Assembly (NCBI RefSeq): GCF_001429285.1
Contig: NZ_LMJJ01000023.1
Span: 257,041 to 321,040 of the forward strand
Direction: 5' to 3'
Length of the DNA: 64,000 nucleotides
From: Ensifer sp. Root278
GTDB taxonomy: Bacteria > Pseudomonadota > Alphaproteobacteria > Rhizobiales > Rhizobiaceae
Each line of letters starts with the position of its first letter. Position 1 is the first letter of the stretch. Positions 13,757 to 24,383 of the stretch are shown one piece after another. Under the pieces are notes generated by a model. That model searched no databases, was not told where the DNA came from, and saw nothing but the letters and a program-made list of their open reading frames with translations. Made by a program: the position numbers and the translations under genes.

Positions 13757-14656
13757 ATGCATAAGACACTTCCGCTTCCACCATTGACGGCGATCCGCGT
13801 CTTCGAGGCGGTCGCCCGGCATGGAAGCTTCACGAAGGCCGCAACCGAGCTCGGCACGACGCAGGCCGCGGTGAGTTATCAGATCAAGGTTCTCGAGGAT
13901 CGGGTCGGCGCGCCCTTGTTTTTGCGCCGACCGCGGCAGATTGCCTTGACAGAAGTCGGACAGCGGCTCGCTCCGGCGGTCACGCAGGCCTTCGAGCAGC
14001 TCAGCGAAGCCTATGTCACGGCGCGCGGCGGCGCCCAGGGAACGCTTGTCATCAGCACGATCGCCACGTTCGCCTCCAATTGGCTGGCGCGGCGTCTTGG
14101 CTCCTTTCAGATCGCCCACCCTTCCCTTGCCGTCCGCCTTCAAACGGAGCCTCACCTGGTGGACTTCAGCCGCGAGGAGGTCGATATCGGCATTCGCTCC
14201 GGCCGCGGCGATTGGCCGGGGCTTGTGGCGCACCGGCTGATCAACGCCGACTTCACCCCTATGCTCAGCCCGAACCTTGCGGCCAGTATCGGCGGGGTGA
14301 AGGAGCCGGCCGATCTGTTGCGTCTGCCGCTGCTCGATCCCGGCGATCCCTGGTGGGCGAAATGGTTTGCGGCCGCGAATGTGCCTGCCGAGGGGCTTTC
14401 CAGTCGTCCCGGCGCCAGCATGGGCGCGCAGGCCTATGAGGGCAACGCCGCCACGGCCGGCCAGGGCGTGGCGATCCTGACGCCGGCGTTCTTCGCCGCC
14501 GAGCTGGCCGATGGGCGCCTCGTCCAGCCCTTCGATCTTCTCTGCAACGACGACCATGCCTACTGGCTGGTCTACCCGGAGACGCGGCGCAATTCACCGA
14601 AGATCAGCGCCTTCCGCCAATGGATCCTCGGCGAAATCGGGGTGTCATCGCGCTGA
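13757..14656 (+). CDS. LysR-family regulator, GcvA-like
   Basis: A 299-residue LysR regulator. The N-terminal helix-turn-helix is GSFTKAATELGTTQAAVSYQI, and LPPLTAIRVFEAVARHGSF is typical of the GcvA subgroup. The remaining 200 residues form a periplasmic-binding-protein-like effector domain. It diverges from the DUF1127 gene, which may be its target. An identical 9-mer ATGCATAAG occurs at 13740 and at the true start 13757; the upstream copy hits a stop after five codons. Effector unknown. Confidence 0.85.
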   Translation: MHKTLPLPPLTAIRVFEAVARHGSFTKAATELGTTQAAVSYQIKVLEDRVGAPLFLRRPRQIALTEVGQRLAPAVTQAFEQLSEAYVTARGGAQGTLVISTIATFASNWLARRLGSFQIAHPSLAVRLQTEPHLVDFSREEVDIGIRSGRGDWPGLVAHRLINADFTPMLSPNLAASIGGVKEPADLLRLPLLDPGDPWWAKWFAAANVPAEGLSSRPGASMGAQAYEGNAATAGQGVAILTPAFFAAELADGRLVQPFDLLCNDDHAYWLVYPETRRNSPKISAFRQWILGEIGVSSR

Positions 14657-14786: not shown

Positions 14787-15611
14787 ATGCAACGCGAGCC
14801 GACGGAACAGTTCCGTTCAGCCACGGAGAACGCCTGGTGGACCGTAAATCGCGGCGATGGACCGATCGTCGGCACCGCGATCCACAATGGGCATGCCATG
14901 CGCAGCGATGCCCGGGCGCTGGTGGCGTTGACGGAGGAAGAAAGGCTGCGCGAGGAGGACCCGTTCACCGAATTCATCATCCGGGACCTTGCCAACCGCA
15001 TCGTCGTCCATCGCTCGCGCTTCGAGGTCGATATCAATCGTGCCCGCGTAGGCGCCGTCTACCTCCAGCCCGCACAGGCCTGGGGTCTTTCCGTCTGGCG
15101 GGAGCAGCCGCCTGCGGAGTTGATCGAAACATCCCTTGCCGTCCATGACGAATACTATGCCATGCTCCGGTCGATGCTGACGGCGATCGAGCGCCGCCAT
15201 CAGCGCTTCATCGTGCTCGACATACACAGCTACAACCATCGGCGGCAGGGGCCGGAGGCCGAACCGGCCGATATCGCCGAGGCACCCGAGATCAACATCG
15301 GAACCTCCTCCATGGATCGGGCCAAATGGGCCGACGTGATCGATACGCTGGTCGCTGCCATCAGCGCCACCACGCTCGCGGGTCGGCCTGTGGATGTGCG
15401 TGAAAACATTGCCTTCCAGGGACGCGGAGAACAGACGCGCTTCATCCACGAGCACTTTCCCGATACGGGCTGCGCGATCGCGATCGAGTTCAAGAAGACC
15501 TTCATGGACGAGTGGACCGGCAAGCCAGACCTCGAAGCGCTGAGGTCGCTGCGCACACTGGTCGGATCACTCGTTCCGATCCTGACCGAGGCGCTCGCGA
15601 GGCAGCGATGA
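14787..15611 (+). CDS. N-formylglutamate amidohydrolase family protein
   Basis: A 274-residue enzyme of the N-formylglutamate amidohydrolase (HutG-type, zinc-dependent) family. Recognisable pieces are TAIHNGHAMR near residue 32, RSRFEVDINRAR near residue 73 and VLDIHSYNHRR near residue 142, carrying His/Asp/Glu residues suited to metal binding. No hut genes are nearby, so histidine breakdown is unlikely to be the role. It is first in a three-gene operon: its stop overlaps the next ATG by four bases (ATGA). GGGAGCG precedes its ATG. The natural substrate may be a modified glutamyl peptide (inference). Confidence 0.82.
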   Translation: MQREPTEQFRSATENAWWTVNRGDGPIVGTAIHNGHAMRSDARALVALTEEERLREEDPFTEFIIRDLANRIVVHRSRFEVDINRARVGAVYLQPAQAWGLSVWREQPPAELIETSLAVHDEYYAMLRSMLTAIERRHQRFIVLDIHSYNHRRQGPEAEPADIAEAPEINIGTSSMDRAKWADVIDTLVAAISATTLAGRPVDVRENIAFQGRGEQTRFIHEHFPDTGCAIAIEFKKTFMDEWTGKPDLEALRSLRTLVGSLVPILTEALARQR

Positions 15612-17491
15612 CGGACGGGAGACCCATGCGCGCGAGCCCTGACCCGGAGTGGCTCGATGAAGCCATTGCCCGACTGAAGGATGGTCGCGCCGTGCGACGG
15701 GACTTCGGCGAGGGTGGACGGCTGCACATCGACCGCCTGCTTCCCTTCCTCTGCGTCCATATCGCAGCCGAGCACCAGCAGCCGGTCGCGCGCGATATCG
15801 CCCAGGCGAATGCCGCCTATCTGCTGGCTCCGAGCGTCGATATCGCCGCCGTCGTCATCGAGCGGGTCGGCCGCGTGATCGAAGAGCGGCAGGGCATGTT
15901 CATCGTTCTCGAGTTTGCCGAGCTCGAAAGCGATGACCCGCCGGCCAAGGACGCGCCGTTCCTGCCGCCCTTCCTGATCGAGGTCGTCGCCGGGCTAAGC
16001 GGCGCCGAGCAGGTTGCCGCGAAAGCACTGATCGAGACCGCTGCGACGATCGAGGGAAAGTTCCGGACCCCGCATGTGACGCTTGTCGAGCGGCAACCGG
16101 AGGCACGGGCAGGCCGAAAGACCCTGGCGCTCGACTATCCCCATCTCACCGTGCGTTTTGCCCCCATCTACTGCGAGCCGGGCACCCGCCGCATCTATCC
16201 GCAATTGCGCGAGCGGCTGGTTGCGAGCGTCTTCGATGCTGGGCTCCGCGCCGTTGCGGCCTTCGCCCGCGCGCGGTCCGATGACTTCCGGCTACCGACG
16301 CATCGCGCCCTTGGCCGGAAAGCCTTCGTCGACGCGGTCGTGCGTGCCGACCGCGGCATCGACGAGATCGCCTCGAGCTTCGATTTCCTGCTCGCGGTGA
16401 CGCCGATCAACGCCGAAACCGCCTGGGCGGAATTCGCGTCGAGCGGCTTTTCCCGAAGTCCCCGCCTCTACTATCGGCCGCTGGCGCTGCAGATCGAAAC
16501 GGCCAAGCGCAAACTCTTCACCCTCAACTTCGAACACCTCGAAGATCCGCTGCTTTATGCCCTCTATCGGGAAAAGCAGCAGGAGGTCGATCTGCAGCTC
16601 TCGATGATATCCGCGCGCGAGACCCGCAAATTCGTCGAACTCGGCCGCGCACTCTACGGCCCGGTGGAAAGCGACCTTCTCAACGCCGCGTCCGACATCC
16701 TCGCGCGCACCGCAGCCGATGGCGCCTCGTCTCCGACATCCGGCAACAAGCGCGACTGCGACTACATAAGGGAGCGAGCCCAGGCGATGATATCAGCCTA
16801 TCGGCGCCAGTCCGCCGATTTCACCGCGTCCGTCGAAATTCGCGACGACCTGCCAGCCGGCCTGCTCGTCTCGCGCGGTCAACTGCTGATCGCCAGAAGC
16901 TCGGCACTCGACCCCGATCGCGTCGAGGCGCTGCTCAGCCACGAGGTCGGCGTGCACCTGCTGACCTATTTCAACGGCTCGGCCCAGGGCCTCCGGATCC
17001 TCCGCTCAGGGCTTGCCGGTTACGAAGGCATGCAGGAAGGGCTTGCCGTTTTCGCCGAATACTTGAGTGCCGGCATGACCGCGGACCGGCTGCGGGTGCT
17101 TGCGGCGAGAGTCGTCGGCTGCGCGGCCCTGCTTGACGGCGCACTGTTTCCGGAGACCTACCGGCTGCTCGTCGACGGCCACGGCTTCGGCACCACAGAG
17201 GCCTTCAACATTACGCTGCGCATCTATCGCGGCGGCGGGCTGGTCAAGGACGCGATCTACCTGCGCGGCCTGTTGCAGCTTCTCGAGCATCTCGCCGACG
17301 GCGGCAGTCTCGAGCCCTTCTGGATGGGCAAGATCGCCGCGTCGCATTTCGGTGCGATCCAGGAACTCAATTTGCGCGGCCTCCTTGGTGCCGCGGCCAT
17401 TCGCCCTATTTTCCTCGATGACGTCAAAGCGCGCGACCGACTTCAGCGAGCCCAGAGGGGAATTACCCCGCTCGACATGGTCGCAGAGTAG
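15608..17491 (+). CDS. DUF1704 / QEGLA-motif metallopeptidase-like protein
   Basis: A 627-residue protein annotated in other genomes as a 'flavohemoglobin expression-modulating QEGLA motif protein' (DUF1704). The second half has an HExxxH zinc motif, HEVGVH, about 30 residues before the QEGLA motif (GMQEGLAVFAEYLS), whose Glu could be the third ligand. Eukaryotic DUF1704 proteins (MATCAP/TMCP) are carboxypeptidases that trim tubulin tails, so a peptidase role is a reasonable inference. The first half has its own conserved segment (YPHLTVRFAPIYCEPGTRRI). ATG at 15608 overlaps the upstream stop; 15626 is an alternative. Confidence 0.8.
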   Translation: MTDGRPMRASPDPEWLDEAIARLKDGRAVRRDFGEGGRLHIDRLLPFLCVHIAAEHQQPVARDIAQANAAYLLAPSVDIAAVVIERVGRVIEERQGMFIVLEFAELESDDPPAKDAPFLPPFLIEVVAGLSGAEQVAAKALIETAATIEGKFRTPHVTLVERQPEARAGRKTLALDYPHLTVRFAPIYCEPGTRRIYPQLRERLVASVFDAGLRAVAAFARARSDDFRLPTHRALGRKAFVDAVVRADRGIDEIASSFDFLLAVTPINAETAWAEFASSGFSRSPRLYYRPLALQIETAKRKLFTLNFEHLEDPLLYALYREKQQEVDLQLSMISARETRKFVELGRALYGPVESDLLNAASDILARTAADGASSPTSGNKRDCDYIRERAQAMISAYRRQSADFTASVEIRDDLPAGLLVSRGQLLIARSSALDPDRVEALLSHEVGVHLLTYFNGSAQGLRILRSGLAGYEGMQEGLAVFAEYLSAGMTADRLRVLAARVVGCAALLDGALFPETYRLLVDGHGFGTTEAFNITLRIYRGGGLVKDAIYLRGLLQLLEHLADGGSLEPFWMGKIAASHFGAIQELNLRGLLGAAAIRPIFLDDVKARDRLQRAQRGITPLDMVAE

Positions 17492-17499
17492 GAAACTGA

Positions 17500-18546
17500 A
17501 TGCGCATCGCCTTTTTCGTCAACTCCATCGAGGGCGAAGAGACGGTCTATGCGACGACATCGCTTGCGCTTGCGGCACTCGCCCGTGGCCACGAGATCGT
17601 CTACGTCACCCCTGGTGATTTCATCCTGAGGCCCGATGGCCGCCTGATGATCCACGCCCTCAACCTCGGCGCGGCGAAGCCGCGCAAGGCCGAAACCTTC
17701 ATCGCCGCGTTGCGGAGCGGCGCCACGCGGCGTGAGACGCTGGACATCGCCGACGTCGACGTTCTGTTTTTGAGAAGCGACCCGTCGGAAGACGCCGGTC
17801 CGCGCCCCTGGGCCACCCAGGCGGGCGTGATTTTCGGGCGGCTTGCGGCCGAGCGCGGGGCAATCGTCGTCAACGATCCCGACGGGCTCACGCGGGCGCA
17901 GAACAAGCTCTATCTCCAGGACTTTCCCGAGATGGTTCGGCCGACCACGCTGATCTCGAAGCATATTGAGGAGATCAGGGCCTTTGTCGACGAGCACCCG
18001 GAAGGTGTCATTCTGAAGCCGCTGCAGGGCTCCGGCGGCAAGAACGTCTTCAAGGTTAGCTCCAGCCACGAGACGAACCTCAACCAGATCTTCGAGGCGG
18101 TCAGCGAGATGGGCTATGTGATCGCGCAGGAATATCTGCCGGCAGCAACGGAAGGCGACGTCAGGCTGTTCCTGATGAACGGCCGGCCGCTCAAACGCGG
18201 CGATACCTACGCTGCGGTTCGGCGCGTCCCGGCGGAAGGTGAGCTACGTTCCAACATGCATGTCAACGGCAGGCCCGTCGCCGCCGTCGTCACGCCGGAA
18301 ATGCTCGCGGTGGCCGAGCAGATGCGGCCGAAGCTGGTGCGCGACGGCATGTTCCTCGTCGGTCTCGACGTGGTCGGCGACAAGCTCGTTGAGGTCAACG
18401 TCTTTACCCCGGGAGCACTGCCTGAAATCGCCGAACTGACATCGATCGAGTTCAGCGAGGACATCATGGCGGCGCTCGAACGGAAGCTCGACATCAAACG
18501 GGCCCATGTCGGCACACTTACCAATCGCGAACTGGCCACGCTCTGA
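17500..18546 (+). CDS. ATP-grasp ligase, glutathione-synthetase-like
   Basis: A 348-residue protein with the GshB/RimK-type ATP-grasp architecture: N-terminal pre-ATP-grasp Rossmann part (MRIAFFVNSIEGEETVYATT), lysine in VILKPLQGSGGKNVFKV, and the metal-site strand VGLDVVGDKLVEVNVF near the C-terminus. It starts 8 bp after the DUF1704 gene, so it is co-transcribed. True glutathione synthetases are about 315 residues and are not usually in such operons; this probably ligates an amino acid to a peptide or small molecule. Calling it gshB would be unsafe. Confidence 0.82.
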   Translation: MRIAFFVNSIEGEETVYATTSLALAALARGHEIVYVTPGDFILRPDGRLMIHALNLGAAKPRKAETFIAALRSGATRRETLDIADVDVLFLRSDPSEDAGPRPWATQAGVIFGRLAAERGAIVVNDPDGLTRAQNKLYLQDFPEMVRPTTLISKHIEEIRAFVDEHPEGVILKPLQGSGGKNVFKVSSSHETNLNQIFEAVSEMGYVIAQEYLPAATEGDVRLFLMNGRPLKRGDTYAAVRRVPAEGELRSNMHVNGRPVAAVVTPEMLAVAEQMRPKLVRDGMFLVGLDVVGDKLVEVNVFTPGALPEIAELTSIEFSEDIMAALERKLDIKRAHVGTLTNRELATL

Positions 18547-18739: not shown

Positions 18740-20026
18740 TTGGCAGGTATCATCACCAAGGGCGCTGAGCCCACGCGCGCGGCCTCATCCGCGTCACCGG
18801 ACGCGACGGGCTATCGATTTGCCCTCTTCGCGCTCACCTCACTGTTCTTCATGTGGGGCTTCATCACGTGCCTGAACGACATTCTGATCCCGCATCTGAA
18901 GAACGTCTTCTCGCTCAACTACACGCAGTCGATGCTGATCCAATTCTGCTTCTTCGGCGCCTATTTCATCGTCTCGCTGCCCGCCGGCGCGCTCGTCAAG
19001 CGCATCAGCTACAAATGGGGGATCGTGCTCGGCCTCGTCATCGCCGCCATCGGCTGCGCGCTGTTCGTCCCGGCGGCAAGCTTTCGCATCTATGCGCTGT
19101 TCCTCGGTGCTCTCTTCGTGCTGGCGAGCGGCATCACGCTGCTGCAGGTTTCGGCCAACCCTTACGTGACCGTGCTTGGTCCGCCGGATACGGCCGCGAG
19201 CCGTCTGACCCTGACCCAGGCCTTCAACTCGCTCGGCACGACGCTGGCCCCGATGTTCGGTGCAACGTTGATCCTGTCGGCTGCTGTCGTCGCCACTGCC
19301 GGCGCGACGCCGGAGCAGCTCGACGCGCTGAGGCTCGCCGAAGCAAGCGCGGTCAAGATGCCCTACCTGCTTCTTGCCGCCGCCTTCCTGCTGCTTGCGG
19401 CGCTCTTCGCCGCCCTGAAGCTGCCGACCGTCGAAGTGCATGACGAGATCGAGCCGATCACCGACGGCAAGTCGGCCTGGCACTACCGCCACCTGGTCCT
19501 CGGCGCCATCGGCATCTTCGTCTATGTCGGCGCGGAGGTCAGTATCGGCAGCTTCCTCGTCAACTTCCTGAACCAGCCCGACATTGCCGGCCTCTCCGAG
19601 GCCGAAGCCGCCCATTATGTGATGTATTTCTGGGGCGGAGCGATGGTCGGCCGGTTCATCGGCGCGGTTGCGATGCGCTTCGTCGACGACGGCAAGGCGT
19701 TGGCCTTCAACGCAGTCGCAGCGATCGTGCTGTTGCTGCTAACCGTCTTTGCCGGCGGCAGCGTTGCCATGTGGTCGGTTCTGGCGATCGGGCTTTTCAA
19801 CTCGATCATGTTCCCGACGATCTTCAGCCTGGCGCTCTACGGCCTCGGGAAATATACGAGCCAGGGCTCCGGCATCCTGTGCCTGGCAATCGTCGGCGGC
19901 GCGCTGTTGCCGCTCGTTCAGGGCGGCCTTGCCGACAACATCGGCATCCACCTTGCCTTCCTGATGCCCGTCGCCTGCTATGCCTATATCGCCTTCTACG
20001 GCCTGAAGGGGCACAAGCCGACCTGA
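18740..20026 (+). CDS. Sugar:H+ symporter of the FucP/GluP family
   Basis: A 428-residue 12-helix MFS transporter. The segment [19 protein letters not shown] near residue 36 and [21 protein letters not shown] are hallmarks of the FucP/GluP group, which import L-fucose or glucose/galactose with protons. The start is a TTG at 18740 with GAGG eight bases upstream; no in-frame ATG gives the full first helix. It stands alone, so no catabolic context names the sugar. Confidence 0.85.
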
Positions 20027-20037
20027 TCTCAGAAGCC

Positions 20038-20068
20038 GCACTTCGCCGCCTCGGCGGCGAAGTGCTTT
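20038..20068 (+). terminator. Intrinsic terminator after the sugar symporter
   Basis: GCACTTCGCCGCC (20038-20050), a 2-base loop and GGCGGCGAAGTGC (20053-20065) form a perfect 13-bp stem followed by TTT. It lies 12 bases past the symporter stop and may also serve the convergent ABC operon. Confidence 0.75.
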
Positions 20069-20136
20069 CCAGCCTCTTGAATTGGTGCCGTTCCAGACGG
20101 AAACCGCTTCAAATTCTCATGGAATTGTTCTGGCGC

Positions 20137-20889
20137 CTAAAGCGACTCGTCGACGATGACGACCGGACGCCCCATGGAGCAAGCCTCCACACGCGCCTCG
20201 ACGCGGTAGACCGAGCGCAGCATGTCCGCGGTGATGACCTCATGGGTCGGGCCGCTCGCCAGCACCGAGCCGCCGCTGATGACGATCGTGTCGTCGCAGT
20301 AGCGCAGCGCATGGTTCAGGTCGTGCAGCGCGATCAGCACCGCCATGCCCGACTGCGCCGACAGGCGCTTCATGAAGCCGAGTACCTCGATCTGGCGGAA
20401 GAGATCAAGCGCCGAGGTCGGCTCGTCCATCAACAGCACTTCGGGCTTGCGCACCAGGGCCTGGGCTATGGAGACAAGCTGGCGCTGGCCACCGGAAAGC
20501 TCGCCGAGGCCGCGAAAGGCGAGGTCGGCGATCCGGAGCTCGCCGAGCACCCGGTCGATCTCGGCGAGTTCGGCGTCCTTCACCTTCCAGCCGGAACCCT
20601 GCTTGGCCGACAGAAGCACCGACTCGTAGACGGTGAGCACGGCATTGGCGCCGGTATCCTGCGGCATGTAGCAGATGCCCTCGGGCCCCTTGGACGTGTC
20701 CGAAAGGTGGACGGTGCCGGGCCCGGACGTCAGGCTTGCGATGCGCTTGAACAGCGTCGACTTGCCGGCGGCATTGGGACCGATCACCGCCGTCAGGCCA
20801 CCGCCCCTAAGGACACCTGTATTGACGTCCGACAGCACCACGCGCCGGCCATAGTTCGCACCAACCTTTTCCAGCGTCAGGCTTACCAT
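20137..20889 (-). CDS. Iron-complex type ABC transporter ATPase
   Basis: A 250-residue ATPase of the FecE/FhuC group that powers uptake of ferric siderophores, haem or cobalamin. The Walker A is GPNAAGKST near residue 38, the signature LSGGQRQLVSI, the Walker B VLLMDEPTSALD and the switch His in ALHDLNHALR. It overlaps the permease gene by seven bases and is the last gene of the operon binding protein - permease - ATPase. Confidence 0.9.
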   Translation of the reverse strand: MVSLTLEKVGANYGRRVVLSDVNTGVLRGGGLTAVIGPNAAGKSTLFKRIASLTSGPGTVHLSDTSKGPEGICYMPQDTGANAVLTVYESVLLSAKQGSGWKVKDAELAEIDRVLGELRIADLAFRGLGELSGGQRQLVSIAQALVRKPEVLLMDEPTSALDLFRQIEVLGFMKRLSAQSGMAVLIALHDLNHALRYCDDTIVISGGSVLASGPTHEVITADMLRSVYRVEARVEACSMGRPVVIVDESL

Positions 20890-21953
20890 GCACGCCTCCT
20901 GTTGGTGAAAATCAGCACGAAGAAGAAGGGCACGCCGACGAGCGCGGTGATGACGCCGATCGGCAGCACCGCGCCGGGAATCAGCATCTTGCTGACGACC
21001 GAGGTGACCGAAAGCAGCAGCGCGCCGCAGAGCACCGAGGCCGGCAGGAAGAAGCGCTGATCCTCGCCGACCAGCATGCGGGCGATATGCGGCCCGACGA
21101 GACCGACGAAACCGATCGTGCCGACGAAGGAGACCGGGATCGCCGCAAGCAGGCTGACGGTCATCATCGCCTCGAGCCTTAGCCGGCGAACATTGATGCC
21201 GAAGCTCGCCGCCTTGTCGTCGCCGAGCCGAAGCGCCGTCAGCGCCCAGGCGTGCCGTGCAAAAAGCGGCAAGGCGAACAGCAGCACGGCGCCGGTGATC
21301 CAGACCTTCGGCCAGGTTGCCTTGGTGAGGCTGCCCATCGTCCAGAACACGACCGCGGCCAGCGCTTGCTCGGAGGCGAGGTATTCGAGCAGCGACAGCG
21401 CAGCATTGAAGGTGAAGACGAGCGCGATGCCGAGCAGCACGATCGTTTCCACTGTGACGCCGCGCATGGTGGAGGCGAAGTGGATGAAGAGCGCCGCCAG
21501 CATCGCCATCAGGAAGGCGTTGATCGGCACCATGTACTGGACCGCAACCGGAAAGACCGCGACGCCGGCAACGAGGCCGAGGGCCGCGCCGAAACCGGCA
21601 GCGGCGGAGATGCCGAGCGTGAACGGACTTGCCAGCGGGTTGGCGAGGATCGTCTGCATCTGCGCGCCGGCGACCGACAGCGAGGCGCCGACCGTCACGG
21701 CCATCAGCGCGATCGGCATGCGGATGTCCCAGATCACCACCCGGAGCTGGTCGCTCACGGTTTCCGACCGGAACAGCGCCGTCAGCACATCGGCAAGCGG
21801 ATAATTTGCAGGGCCAAGCGCCATGTCGACCGCGACGGACGCAAACAGCGCGCCGACGAGACAGAAGATCAGCACCAAACGGCGCAGGACGAGCGCGCGA
21901 TAGCGCCCCCGTCCCTCAACGCCGGAAATCTGGTCAGTCATGGCAACCATCAT
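20883..21953 (-). CDS. Iron-complex type ABC transporter permease (FecCD family)
   Basis: A 356-residue inner-membrane permease with about 9-10 helices. Typical FecCD segments are GASLSVAGAQMQTILANPLASPFTLGIS (residues about 93-120, given here only as landmark), FVGTIGFVGLVGPHIAR and a short cytoplasmic C-terminus. It overlaps the binding-protein gene by four bases and the ATPase gene by seven. A single permease gene implies a homodimer. Confidence 0.88.
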   Translation of the reverse strand: MMVAMTDQISGVEGRGRYRALVLRRLVLIFCLVGALFASVAVDMALGPANYPLADVLTALFRSETVSDQLRVVIWDIRMPIALMAVTVGASLSVAGAQMQTILANPLASPFTLGISAAAGFGAALGLVAGVAVFPVAVQYMVPINAFLMAMLAALFIHFASTMRGVTVETIVLLGIALVFTFNAALSLLEYLASEQALAAVVFWTMGSLTKATWPKVWITGAVLLFALPLFARHAWALTALRLGDDKAASFGINVRRLRLEAMMTVSLLAAIPVSFVGTIGFVGLVGPHIARMLVGEDQRFFLPASVLCGALLLSVTSVVSKMLIPGAVLPIGVITALVGVPFFFVLIFTNRRRAW

Positions 21954-23095
21954 TCACCATCCTTCGGAAGCGAGACGAAGTAGCCCGGGCGATAGGTCAC
22001 CGGCAGGAACTTCTCGTGAAACTCGCGGAAAGTCCGGTCCGGGTCGATGTCGGCAAAAAGCTCCGGCTGGAACCATTTGGCAAACTGCTGGATCGGAATG
22101 AACTCGTAAGGCGCGCCGTAGAACTGATGCCAGACGGCGTGCACGTTACCTTCCTTCACCGCCTTCAGGCCGGGAAAGCCCGGGCGCTGCATCAGGCCGC
22201 GCAGACGCTCCTCAGCCGCCGCCGCATCGGCGCCACGGCCGACGCTGACGAACTGGTTGAGATCGGATTCCGCCGACCAGTTGCTGCCGGTGATGATGAC
22301 ATGATCGGGATCACTGACGATGAGCTGCTCAGGATTGAGGTCGCCGAAGGTGCCCTTGATCACGTCCGAACCGATATTGTGGCCGCCGGCCTCTTCCACC
22401 ATCTTGCCGAAATTCGCCGGACCGAAGGTTCGGCAGCAGACGACGTCGCCGGTGATACCGGGAGAGCGCTCGATGAAGACTTTCGGGCGTGCGATTGCCC
22501 CCGCCTTCTTCAGGCGGTCCGTCACCAACGCGATCTGGGCATTGCGGTATTCGATGAATTCACGCGCCTTTGCCTCGGCGCCGAAGAGTTGGCCGAGGAT
22601 TTCGACCGATTTCTCGCTGTTGGCAGCCGGATCGACGCGGAAATCGAGATAGACGACGGCGATGCCGGCAGCCGCCGCCTTTTCGATGAAGCCCGATTCC
22701 TCGACAGCCTTCTCAGCCTCGAGGTTCAGGGTCAGCACATCGGGCTTCAGCGCGATCGCCGCTTCGAGGCTGAAATCGCCTGAAGGGATATAGCCGAAAC
22801 GCGGCAGCTTCTCGATCTCGGGGAAGCGCTCGACATAGGCGGCGTAGGAATCCGGGTCCTTTTTCACGAGGTCGTCGCGCCAGCCGACGATCGTGTCGAA
22901 GACATGCTCGCCTTTCAGCGCCGCCGCGACATGGATCTGCCGCGCCTCGCCCAGCAGCACGCGCTTGGCGGGCAGCGCGATTTCGACCCGGCGGCCGGTA
23001 ACGTCGATGATTTCCGCAGCACTAGCCGGCAGAGCCGCCAGCACTATGGCGGCGATCATCGCCGACGCGATTTTCCTGAAGATCGGCATTCTCAT
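21950..23095 (-). CDS. Periplasmic iron-complex-type binding protein
   Basis: A 381-residue exported binding protein (signal peptide ending in PASAAE) of the two-lobed FecB/BtuF class, with DVTGRRVEIALPAKRVLLGEARQ at the N-terminus of the mature chain. It heads the operon with the permease and ATPase (4-bp overlap). A paralogue with the same layout lies just upstream. The paired Cys in VVCCRTFG matches CC in the paralogue (DDCCMSFG), a shared unusual feature near the ligand cleft. Ligand unknown; iron-siderophore or haem is inferred from the ABC type. Confidence 0.85.
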   Translation of the reverse strand: MRMPIFRKIASAMIAAIVLAALPASAAEIIDVTGRRVEIALPAKRVLLGEARQIHVAAALKGEHVFDTIVGWRDDLVKKDPDSYAAYVERFPEIEKLPRFGYIPSGDFSLEAAIALKPDVLTLNLEAEKAVEESGFIEKAAAAGIAVVYLDFRVDPAANSEKSVEILGQLFGAEAKAREFIEYRNAQIALVTDRLKKAGAIARPKVFIERSPGITGDVVCCRTFGPANFGKMVEEAGGHNIGSDVIKGTFGDLNPEQLIVSDPDHVIITGSNWSAESDLNQFVSVGRGADAAAAEERLRGLMQRPGFPGLKAVKEGNVHAVWHQFYGAPYEFIPIQQFAKWFQPELFADIDPDRTFREFHEKFLPVTYRPGYFVSLPKDGE

Positions 23096-23127
23096 TCCTT
23101 TCGATCGCGACGCTGCTGCTGTTTTTT

Positions 23128-23147
23128 TTAAATCGCATGCGATTTAA
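23128..23147. promoter_or_regulatory. 20-bp perfect palindrome before the ABC binding-protein gene
   Basis: TTAAATCGCA followed directly by its reverse complement, centred 43 bp upstream of the binding-protein ATG. On the plus strand it is preceded by a run of eight T, so it is not an intrinsic terminator for the minus-strand transcript. Its shape suits a homodimeric repressor (MarR-like symmetry), but the regulator is not identified. Confidence 0.55.
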
Positions 23148-23175
23148 GGACGAAAACATGCAGCAATTCAAAGTG

Positions 23176-23219
23176 CTACGGCGACCTTTGCGCGTCTAAT
23201 AAGACGCGCGGCGCCGTAG
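23176..23219 (-). terminator. Nested stem-loop between the two binding-protein genes
   Basis: An inner perfect 8-bp stem (GCGCGTCT 23190-23197 with AGACGCGC 23202-23209, loop AATA) sits inside an outer perfect 8-bp stem (CTACGGCG 23176-23183 with CGCCGTAG 23212-23219). It begins 31 bases past the stop of the upstream binding-protein gene. There is no U-run on the transcribed strand, so partial termination or 3'-end protection is more likely than full termination. Confidence 0.55.
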
Positions 23220-23249
23220 AGACCTCCCCTCCTCCGGCTGTCGATCTGC

Positions 23250-24383
23250 TTACTTGCTGGCCGTCAGCGAAACGAAGTAGCCGCTCTCATAGGGAAGCGG
23301 CAGGAAGCGCTCATGCAGCTCCTTGAACGTCGCTTCCGGGTCGAGGTCGGCGAAGAGATCCGGATGCAGCCACTTGGCGATCTGCTGGATCGCGACGAAC
23401 TGGTAGGGATTGTTGTAGAACTGGTGCCAAATGGCATGGACCTGGCCGTCCTTGACCGCCTGGACGCCGGTAAAGGCCGGGCGCTTGGTCAGGTTTTCGA
23501 GCTTGCGGGCCGCTTCCTTTACATCCGCGCCATAACCGACCCCAACCCAGGCGCCGCCCGGCACGTAACCCTGCCAGTTGCCGCCGGTGACGATGATCTG
23601 GTCCGGGTTCGCAGCGATGATCTGCTCCGGATTGACCGTGCCGAAGGTGCCGGGAATGATGTCCTTGGCCATGTTCACGCCGCCGGCGAATTCGACCATC
23701 TTGCCGAAATTCTCGTTGCCGAAGGACATGCAGCAATCGTCGGAATAACCGCCGGCGCGCTCGACGAAGACCAGCGGCTTCTTCGGGTTGGCCTTCGCCA
23801 AAACGTCGGTCACCTTGGCGATGCTTTCGGCGCGGAACTTGATGAATTCTTCGGCCTTCTCTTCCTTGCCGAGCAGCTTGCCCATCACACGCATGCTCGG
23901 CTCGGTGTTTTCCATCGGCTTTTCGCGGAAGTCGACATAGACGAGCGGGATGCCGACCTTGGCGAGCTTTTCGATGTAGCCAGCCTCCTCCGTTGCGGTC
24001 TTGGCATCGACATTCATCAAGACGACATCGGGCTTCAGCGCGACCGCCTGCTCGATGTCGAAAGTGCCGTCCTTCATGCCGCCGAAGGTCGGCAGCTTGG
24101 CGACATCAGGGTATTTCGCGAGATAGGCGGCGTAGCTTTCCGGGTCAGCCTTGGAGAGATCGTCACGCCAGCCGACGACGCGTTTGAACGGCTCGTCACG
24201 GTCGAGCGCACCGAGGAAATAGATCTGGCGCCCTTCGCCGAGGATCACGTGCTCGACCGGTACATTGACCTCGACATCGCGGCCGGTCACGTCTTTCAGC
24301 GTCACGACATCAGCGAAGGCTGCCGTTGAAAAAAGCACGCAAAAGCCCGTGGCGGCCGCAGCCACCCTGTTGAAAAACCGCAT
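23250..24383 (-). CDS. Second periplasmic iron-complex-type binding protein
   Basis: A 377-residue paralogue of the neighbouring binding protein, with a signal peptide ending STAAFAD and a mature start VVTLKDVTGRDVEVNVPVEHV. The two proteins align along their whole length, including the GWRDDL, HAIWHQFY and GYFVSL segments. The gene is separated from the downstream operon by the nested hairpin and the palindrome, so it may be expressed on its own, probably more strongly. It shares the IRO-type box region with the divergent methyltransferase. Confidence 0.85.
   Translation of the reverse strand: MRFFNRVAAAATGFCVLFSTAAFADVVTLKDVTGRDVEVNVPVEHVILGEGRQIYFLGALDRDEPFKRVVGWRDDLSKADPESYAAYLAKYPDVAKLPTFGGMKDGTFDIEQAVALKPDVVLMNVDAKTATEEAGYIEKLAKVGIPLVYVDFREKPMENTEPSMRVMGKLLGKEEKAEEFIKFRAESIAKVTDVLAKANPKKPLVFVERAGGYSDDCCMSFGNENFGKMVEFAGGVNMAKDIIPGTFGTVNPEQIIAANPDQIIVTGGNWQGYVPGGAWVGVGYGADVKEAARKLENLTKRPAFTGVQAVKDGQVHAIWHQFYNNPYQFVAIQQIAKWLHPDLFADLDPEATFKELHERFLPLPYESGYFVSLTASK

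Follow-up and report, generated by a model that had tools for sequence, protein, structure and literature searches.

A conserved operon of three genes

The window analysed here is a 64,000-nucleotide stretch of the Ensifer sp. Root278 genome (contig NZ_LMJJ01000023.1, positions 257,041 to 321,040). It contains three contiguous plus-strand genes encoding a protein of the N-formylglutamate amidohydrolase (FGase) family, a DUF1704 protein and an ATP-grasp ligase. The source genome is 7.1 Mb in size, and the nearest relatives of the DUF1704 protein are found in Ensifer/Sinorhizobium. The features of the operon, with coordinates in the window, are as follows.

14787..15611, + strand: FGase-family metallohydrolase of 274 amino acids, non-HutG (PF05013, AlphaFold model, motifs)
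15608..17491, + strand: two-domain DUF1704/MATCAP protein of 627 amino acids, 'QEGLA motif protein' (PF08014; start at the ATGA overlap)
15677..16279, + strand: predicted N-terminal domain of FGase/M14 fold, residues 24–224, without the FGase DxHSY motif
16385..17488, + strand: predicted C-terminal MATCAP-type metallopeptidase domain, residues 260–627
16940..16957, + strand: HEVGVH (HExxxH) putative metal-binding/catalytic motif, residues 445–450, aligned with HEIGTH of MATCAP
17033..17047, + strand: QEGLA motif, residues 476–480, in which E477 is presumed to be the third metal ligand; aligned with EEG of MATCAP
17500..18546, + strand: GshB-like ATP-grasp ligase of 348 amino acids, PRK12458 subfamily (NF009110; aligns with 1gsa)

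The FGase and DUF1704 genes overlap by 4 bp (ATGA), the DUF1704 start codon lying at 15608, and the ligase ATG at 17500 is 8 bases past the DUF1704 stop. An earlier reading of the DNA, made from the sequence only, had described the genes as overlapping or 8 bp apart and forming one unit, and both the coordinates and the conservation of gene order bear this out. The rhizobial set comprised the best 80 of 109 relatives obtained with a DUF1704 query in species genomes. Gene order was counted with tblastn, because the open reading frame (ORF) caller loses genes lying under longer antisense ORFs. The order FGase–DUF1704–ligase on one strand is kept at all 80 loci. With start codons chosen by us, the 240 genes contain no internal stops, the 4-bp overlap is common to 72 of the 80 loci, and the ligase begins at most 15 bases after the DUF1704 gene in 78. 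In S. meliloti 1021 all three genes reside on pSymB. Furthermore, matrices of pairwise identity for the three proteins, built over 81 loci, are correlated with one another (0.89–0.95).

The pairing extends well beyond this set. An even sample of the phylum (299 genomes) contains DUF1704 in 29 genomes and the ligase in 8 (11 copies), and nine of the 11 copies adjoin a long DUF1704 gene; the other two are located at a contig edge (G109) and, as a stand-alone paralog, in the window's genome. Among 199 genomes sampled at the level of Rhizobiaceae, 19 carry DUF1704 and 18 the ligase, and every ligase-bearing genome has the adjacent pair; in the nineteenth DUF1704 genome (G468) the contig ends inside the adjacent ligase gene. 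The third sample (321 genomes) was drawn from the class of G243, which its Vibrionaceae relatives indicate to be Gammaproteobacteria. Here, the ligase is present in 17 genomes and lies beside a long DUF1704 gene in 15. In the two exceptions, G688 and G670, the ligase is below the subfamily cut-off, as are some of the adjacent ligases. An FGase is beside or fused to the DUF1704 protein in 14 of the 15 pairs; three of these are fusions, one is truncated at a contig end and one is split between two frames. At the fifteenth pair, L146, the start of the contig truncates the locus. The hypergeometric co-occurrence values (3e-7 and 1e-24) overstate independence because G000 and G243 recur across the samples, which also include related genomes; adjacency is the stronger fact. 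Overall, the three-gene operon is confirmed as a real unit, associated above chance.

Not every DUF1704 protein is part of this association. On the basis of frame length and gene neighbours, sixteen DUF1704 proteins of the class sample were assigned to the long form; 15 have a ligase and one (G588) does not. At 22 loci with short DUF1704 genes (L005–L025, L033) no ligase or FGase was found within ~1.5 kb, and the short proteins encoded there have no detectable N-terminal domain; one short copy is located near the operon of G764. Thus, the neighbourhood survey upholds the sequence-only proposal of a fixed three-gene set for the long, two-domain DUF1704 and corrects it for the family as a whole. 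The same proposal included a conserved small partner, which was not found: clustering of ORFs of at least 60 amino acids at the 80 loci yielded no fixed fourth gene beyond the trio. The partnerless short proteins go beyond that earlier reading, as do the FGase-like N-terminal domain, the FGase–MATCAP fusions and the osmotic link described below.

Several loci depart from the common layout. The ligase gene is doubled in tandem after the DUF1704 gene at L145 (1835–3980) and L146 (1445–3552), and L146 has an additional short DUF1704 gene. At L039 (9658–12610, G093:C24), a long DUF1704 gene overlaps a gene for an AstE/AspA-type hydrolase, not an FGase, and there is no ligase match. Locus L049 (8544–10339, G240) contains a remnant DUF1704 gene interrupted by a TAG, adjoining an HdfR-like LysR gene.

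The next ORF clusters at the 80 loci are, in our reading, transporters found at varying positions and shadow ORFs on the antisense strand. These neighbours bear on a purely catabolic role, in which the hydrolases would degrade an imported N-acyl peptide and the ligase would conjugate a breakdown product. Two of the three genes do encode hydrolases, annotated sugar ABC transporter genes come after the operon in S. meliloti, and the ligase paralog of the window's genome sits after an ABC transporter. However, the 80 operons have no one type of transporter as a constant neighbour, and the partner at L145 and L146 is a second ligase rather than a transporter, which makes this role very unlikely.

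The DUF1704 protein

The DUF1704 protein scores 295.4 bits against PF08014 (DUF1704, now named MATCAP; cut-off 27). With the QEGLA model TIGR02421 it reaches 336.5 bits, just below the cut-off of 338.65, which is met by five relatives (344.8–482.6 bits). An alignment of 54 sequences shows no variation at H445, E446, H450 or E477, in agreement with the zinc-peptidase layout of HEVGVH and a downstream QEGLA noted in the sequence-only reading at the same positions, and HExxxH followed 26 residues on by EG is present in all 102 long proteins. The MATCAP fold was found for the DUF1704 model with VIA-align 2 over the Foldseek top 1000; no MATCAP was among the 50 Foldseek matches listed, and a search of the PDB with the single sequence gave no match. 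Motif alignment, the fold of the model and the conserved motif thus all favour the suggested relation to MATCAP, and the predicted structure of the long form did not lack the metal site, the outcome that would have spoken against it. Collectively, sequence and model support the assignment of the C-terminal domain as a MATCAP-type metallopeptidase with an intact metal-site motif. Eukaryotic MATCAP/TMCP enzymes are described as removing C-terminal residues and shortening poly-glutamate chains while sparing the branch-point glutamate (PMC10499314). Literature searches, which covered the leading matches where the lists were long, found no study of what bacterial DUF1704 proteins do.

The name given by NCBI would make the DUF1704 protein a regulator of flavohemoglobin expression rather than a peptidase. 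This is the name that TIGR02421 carries, and the literature search found no paper supporting it. Since all 102 long proteins retain HExxxH and the glutamate, and the model adopts the fold of an active carboxypeptidase, we regard such a function as extremely unlikely.

Kinship of the N-terminal domain with FGase is favoured by wider alignments (94–96%), by a hidden Markov model of the domain and by the fold; counted against it are the whole-alignment comparison (13.7%) and the comparison of the domain with a single fused protein (9%). Judging from its lack of the metal motif, this FGase/M14-fold domain is probably not catalytic. In all four fusions tested, FGase and MATCAP domains are joined in a single protein, both above the Pfam cut-offs.

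The FGase

The first protein of the operon scores 86 bits against PF05013 (cut-off 28.9). Its AlphaFold model (pLDDT 89.3) matches the FGase structures 2q7s (E 2.3e-11) and 2odf and, more weakly, M14-type carboxypeptidases, including CCP5 (E 2.5e-3, TM 0.32); sequence searches of the PDB, with the single sequence and with a profile, found no relative. The FGase motifs, which we take to be the metal and substrate residues of the family, were found in 94 of 96 sequences (three of them fused domains); of the two sequences without them, one is a mis-started ORF and the other a broken one. The protein thus shares family and fold with HutG and other N-formylglutamate amidohydrolases. Unlike them, it is encoded in this operon, remains far under the cut-off of the HutG model TIGR02017 (21.1 versus 278.75 bits), and some of its relatives are fused to MATCAP.

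The ligase and its relation to glutathione synthetase

The ligase belongs to the glutathione-synthetase branch of the ATP-grasp enzymes (PF02955, 185 bits, cut-off 23) and to the PRK12458 subfamily (NF009110, 459.5 bits, cut-off 408). It has both Pfam domains of GshB and aligns along the full length of E. coli GshB (1gsa) with the core kept; 103 residues are invariant among 81 relatives. In contrast to GshB proper, it is under both equivalog cut-offs (PRK05246, 219.5 versus 272 bits; TIGR01380, 206.1 versus 299.05 bits), and the same genome encodes a separate GshB that scores 456 and 410 bits on these two models. As the FGase and the ligase miss the HutG and GshB cut-offs, the current names mislead, as the sequence-only reading had suspected. 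Indeed, the labels glutathione synthetase, HutG and flavohemoglobin modulator steer readers to the wrong biology, and the trio, which occurs in bacteria of soil and sea, carries annotations for glutathione and histidine breakdown. In the literature, PRK12458 has been counted as GshB (PMC3462692), and the salt-induced 'GshB' RS17020 is treated as the glutathione synthetase in PMC10308900.

Could the operon ligase nevertheless be a second glutathione synthetase, with the two hydrolases recycling glutathione or neighbouring it by chance? We consider this quite improbable. A separate GshB of at least 403 bits is present in 22 of the 27 genomes tested, the window's included, and in 19 of the 24 that bear the pair (G588, G688 and G670 being without it). 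Moreover, the DPPFD and NVTSPTGIRE of the window genome's own GshB are replaced by DPSED and NVFTPGALPE in the operon ligase, and its association with DUF1704 greatly exceeds chance. On the other side stand the full-length alignment and the five genomes (G006, G037, G093, G113 and G787, 90–99% complete) that have no separate GshB above the cut-off; the operon ligase is the only GshB-like match listed there and could therefore make glutathione. In addition, the PRK05246 cut-off is passed by fusion-type ligases (G243, G698, G586 and Photobacterium L161 and L162) and likewise by the ligase proteins of G688 and G670, which weighs against a clean split from GshB.

The stand-alone paralog in the window's genome is 63.5% identical to the operon ligase and has no peptidases with it. 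Its gene (L034 9120–10199, G000:C9) and that at L136 are located directly 3' of a PF06472-type ABC transporter; the same holds for G367, not for G447.

Proposed function

We tentatively propose, with confidence somewhat short of even, that the operon encodes a dedicated cytoplasmic amidoligase–peptidase module, which would control how long a peptide or protein tail of acidic, glutamate type becomes or how it turns over. The sequence-only reading had likewise inferred a cycle that adds and removes residues on a glutamate-rich tail or a small gamma-glutamyl compound; its interpretation is supported in part, both substrates being hypothetical. The proposal starts from direct observations, namely the gene unit, families, folds, intact motifs, co-inheritance and fusions; from these we infer the reactions (by family), the opposition of the enzymes, the substrate and the role. 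The ATP-grasp ligase would convert the C-terminal carboxylate of a peptide-like substrate to an acyl phosphate and join an amino acid to it, and the MATCAP-type domain would strip C-terminal residues off the product. As TMCPs leave the branch-point glutamate in place, a second hydrolase could, by analogy, take the last residue; this may be the FGase, which would hydrolyse either an N-acyl bond or the final amide bond at a residue resembling glutamate. The FGase-like domain without a metal motif might dock the FGase or hold the substrate. In at least one lineage, a drop in salinity would induce the genes along with RimK, the S6 glutamate ligase.

By analogy, the operon most likely works like RimK–RimB and Rlo but with other peptidases, the amidoligase–peptidase kind of system being already known. 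The 2009 amidoligase survey of Iyer et al. reportedly describes ATP-grasp ligases with neighbouring peptidases and may already list this neighbourhood. As in RimK–RimB and Rlo, a cytosolic ATP-grasp ligase is encoded with a peptidase (PMC12239564). Unlike in those systems, the operon peptidases are of MATCAP and FGase type, the ligase belongs to the GshB branch, and the retropepsin-like PF05618 is unmatched among the three operon proteins. A second parallel is the editing of eukaryotic tubulin tails by TTL/TTLL, which are ATP-grasp enzymes, versus MATCAP/TMCP and CCP, the latter being M14 enzymes; the weak match of the FGase model to the CCP5 structure fits this comparison. There too, a ligase is opposed by MATCAP-type carboxypeptidases (PMC10499314). 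The operon differs in that it has no tubulin, its ligase is from another ATP-grasp branch, and its FGase is not M14 by sequence.

A bolder version of the module, which we think rather unlikely, is a bacterial protein-tail code: the ligase would write a tail on a cytosolic protein, the MATCAP- and FGase-type enzymes would erase it, and osmolarity would tune the process, using the same enzyme classes as eukaryotic tubulin-tail editing and perhaps standing near their bacterial source. If a ligase–carboxypeptidase cycle does operate, the two reactions that underlie tubulin-tail editing would become accessible in a tractable bacterium. The copy on S. meliloti pSymB would then be a ready target, and the link to osmotic adaptation could be put to the test.

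Alternatively, the operon might make and salvage a small, soluble gamma-glutamyl or glutathione-like metabolite, which the ligase would build and the FGase and MATCAP-type enzymes would break down. We hold this to be a serious if doubtful possibility. The closest solved relative of the ligase, GshB, acts on a free dipeptide, no further conserved protein gene lies beside the 80 operons among ORFs of at least 60 amino acids, and the G243 pair is adjoined by two glutamine-synthetase-like genes and a FAD-oxidase gene. However, those neighbours belong to one genome only and are under curated cut-offs, including that for gamma-glutamylputrescine synthetase, and the nearest context in other genomes is RimK and rlo. 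Furthermore, the characterized MATCAP/TMCP enzymes act on protein tails (PMC10499314).

Genomic context and a possible osmotic link

In favour of the tail-setting module, the operon at L040 (5765–12910, G093:C21) is directly followed by an rlo-like cluster, placing two ligase–peptidase systems side by side. The cluster encodes a retropepsin-type protease (PF05618), a seven-transmembrane protein with an inactive transglutaminase (PF14400/14402) and an ATPgrasp_ST ligase (PF14397), a composition matching that of the P. aeruginosa Rlo operon. Rlo has been reported to take part in osmotic stress tolerance in that species (PMC12239564). At L154 (7020–11991, G688:C24), a relative of the GshB-like ligase, CorA, an MscS channel, RimK and an AstE/AspA-type hydrolase are encoded in one run. 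Moreover, in Photobacterium damselae at 1% versus 3% NaCl, the reported induction is 52.2-fold for RimK, 38.4-fold for the 'GshB' RS17020 and 27.5-fold for the QEGLA protein RS17025 (PMC10308900). This low-salt induction points to osmotic adaptation. The consecutive tags, and two other Photobacterium records in which a PRK12458 ligase gene is directly 5' of a long DUF1704 gene, suggest that RS17020 is an operon-type ligase. COG3930 is presumably the DUF1704 family. In a table for V. vulnificus, the COG3930 gene VV2_1203 precedes the 'glutathione synthetase' VV2_1204 (PMC3091676).

Besides the GshB-like traits of some ligases and the paralog without peptidases, several observations weigh against the proposed module and its osmotic role. 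The salinity data were obtained in a member of another order, and the identity of RS17020 is itself deduced. RimK is above threshold in eight of the 27 genomes and not in the other 19, the window's included, and is thus not required. The ligase is missing beside the fused protein in G588 and in Vibrio sp. HDW18, no HdfR-like neighbour was found at L143–L159, and the literature searched yielded no activity, substrate or phenotype for any of the three proteins.

HdfR-like LysR genes do lie within ~1.3 kb or less of the operon at L036, L037 and L040. In Vibrionaceae, an HdfR-like regulator, a DUF413/MaoP-like gene and a long DUF1704 gene occur together (L160 5507–8965, L161 4504–8983 and L162 4498–8992), with no ligase beside the group in the Vibrio record L160. 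Among five proteins tested, that of L161 alone passes the HdfR cut-off. HdfR was rejected as a general partner, being present at some loci only.

Other features of the window

A further gene precedes the operon.

13757..14656, + strand: LysR-type regulator (GcvA model, 286.6 bits, cut-off 288)

This gene is a possible regulator of the operon; as a neighbour it is not conserved across the 80 rhizobial loci. Scanning for promoters and terminators found none and no excess over shuffled sequences. A defence system was considered and rejected, as none of the three proteins had a PADLOC match. On the 3' side of the operon (18740–24383), inspection of the ORF list by eye indicates a transporter-like ORF and opposite-strand ORFs that resemble the genes of an iron-siderophore ABC system, two binding proteins among them.

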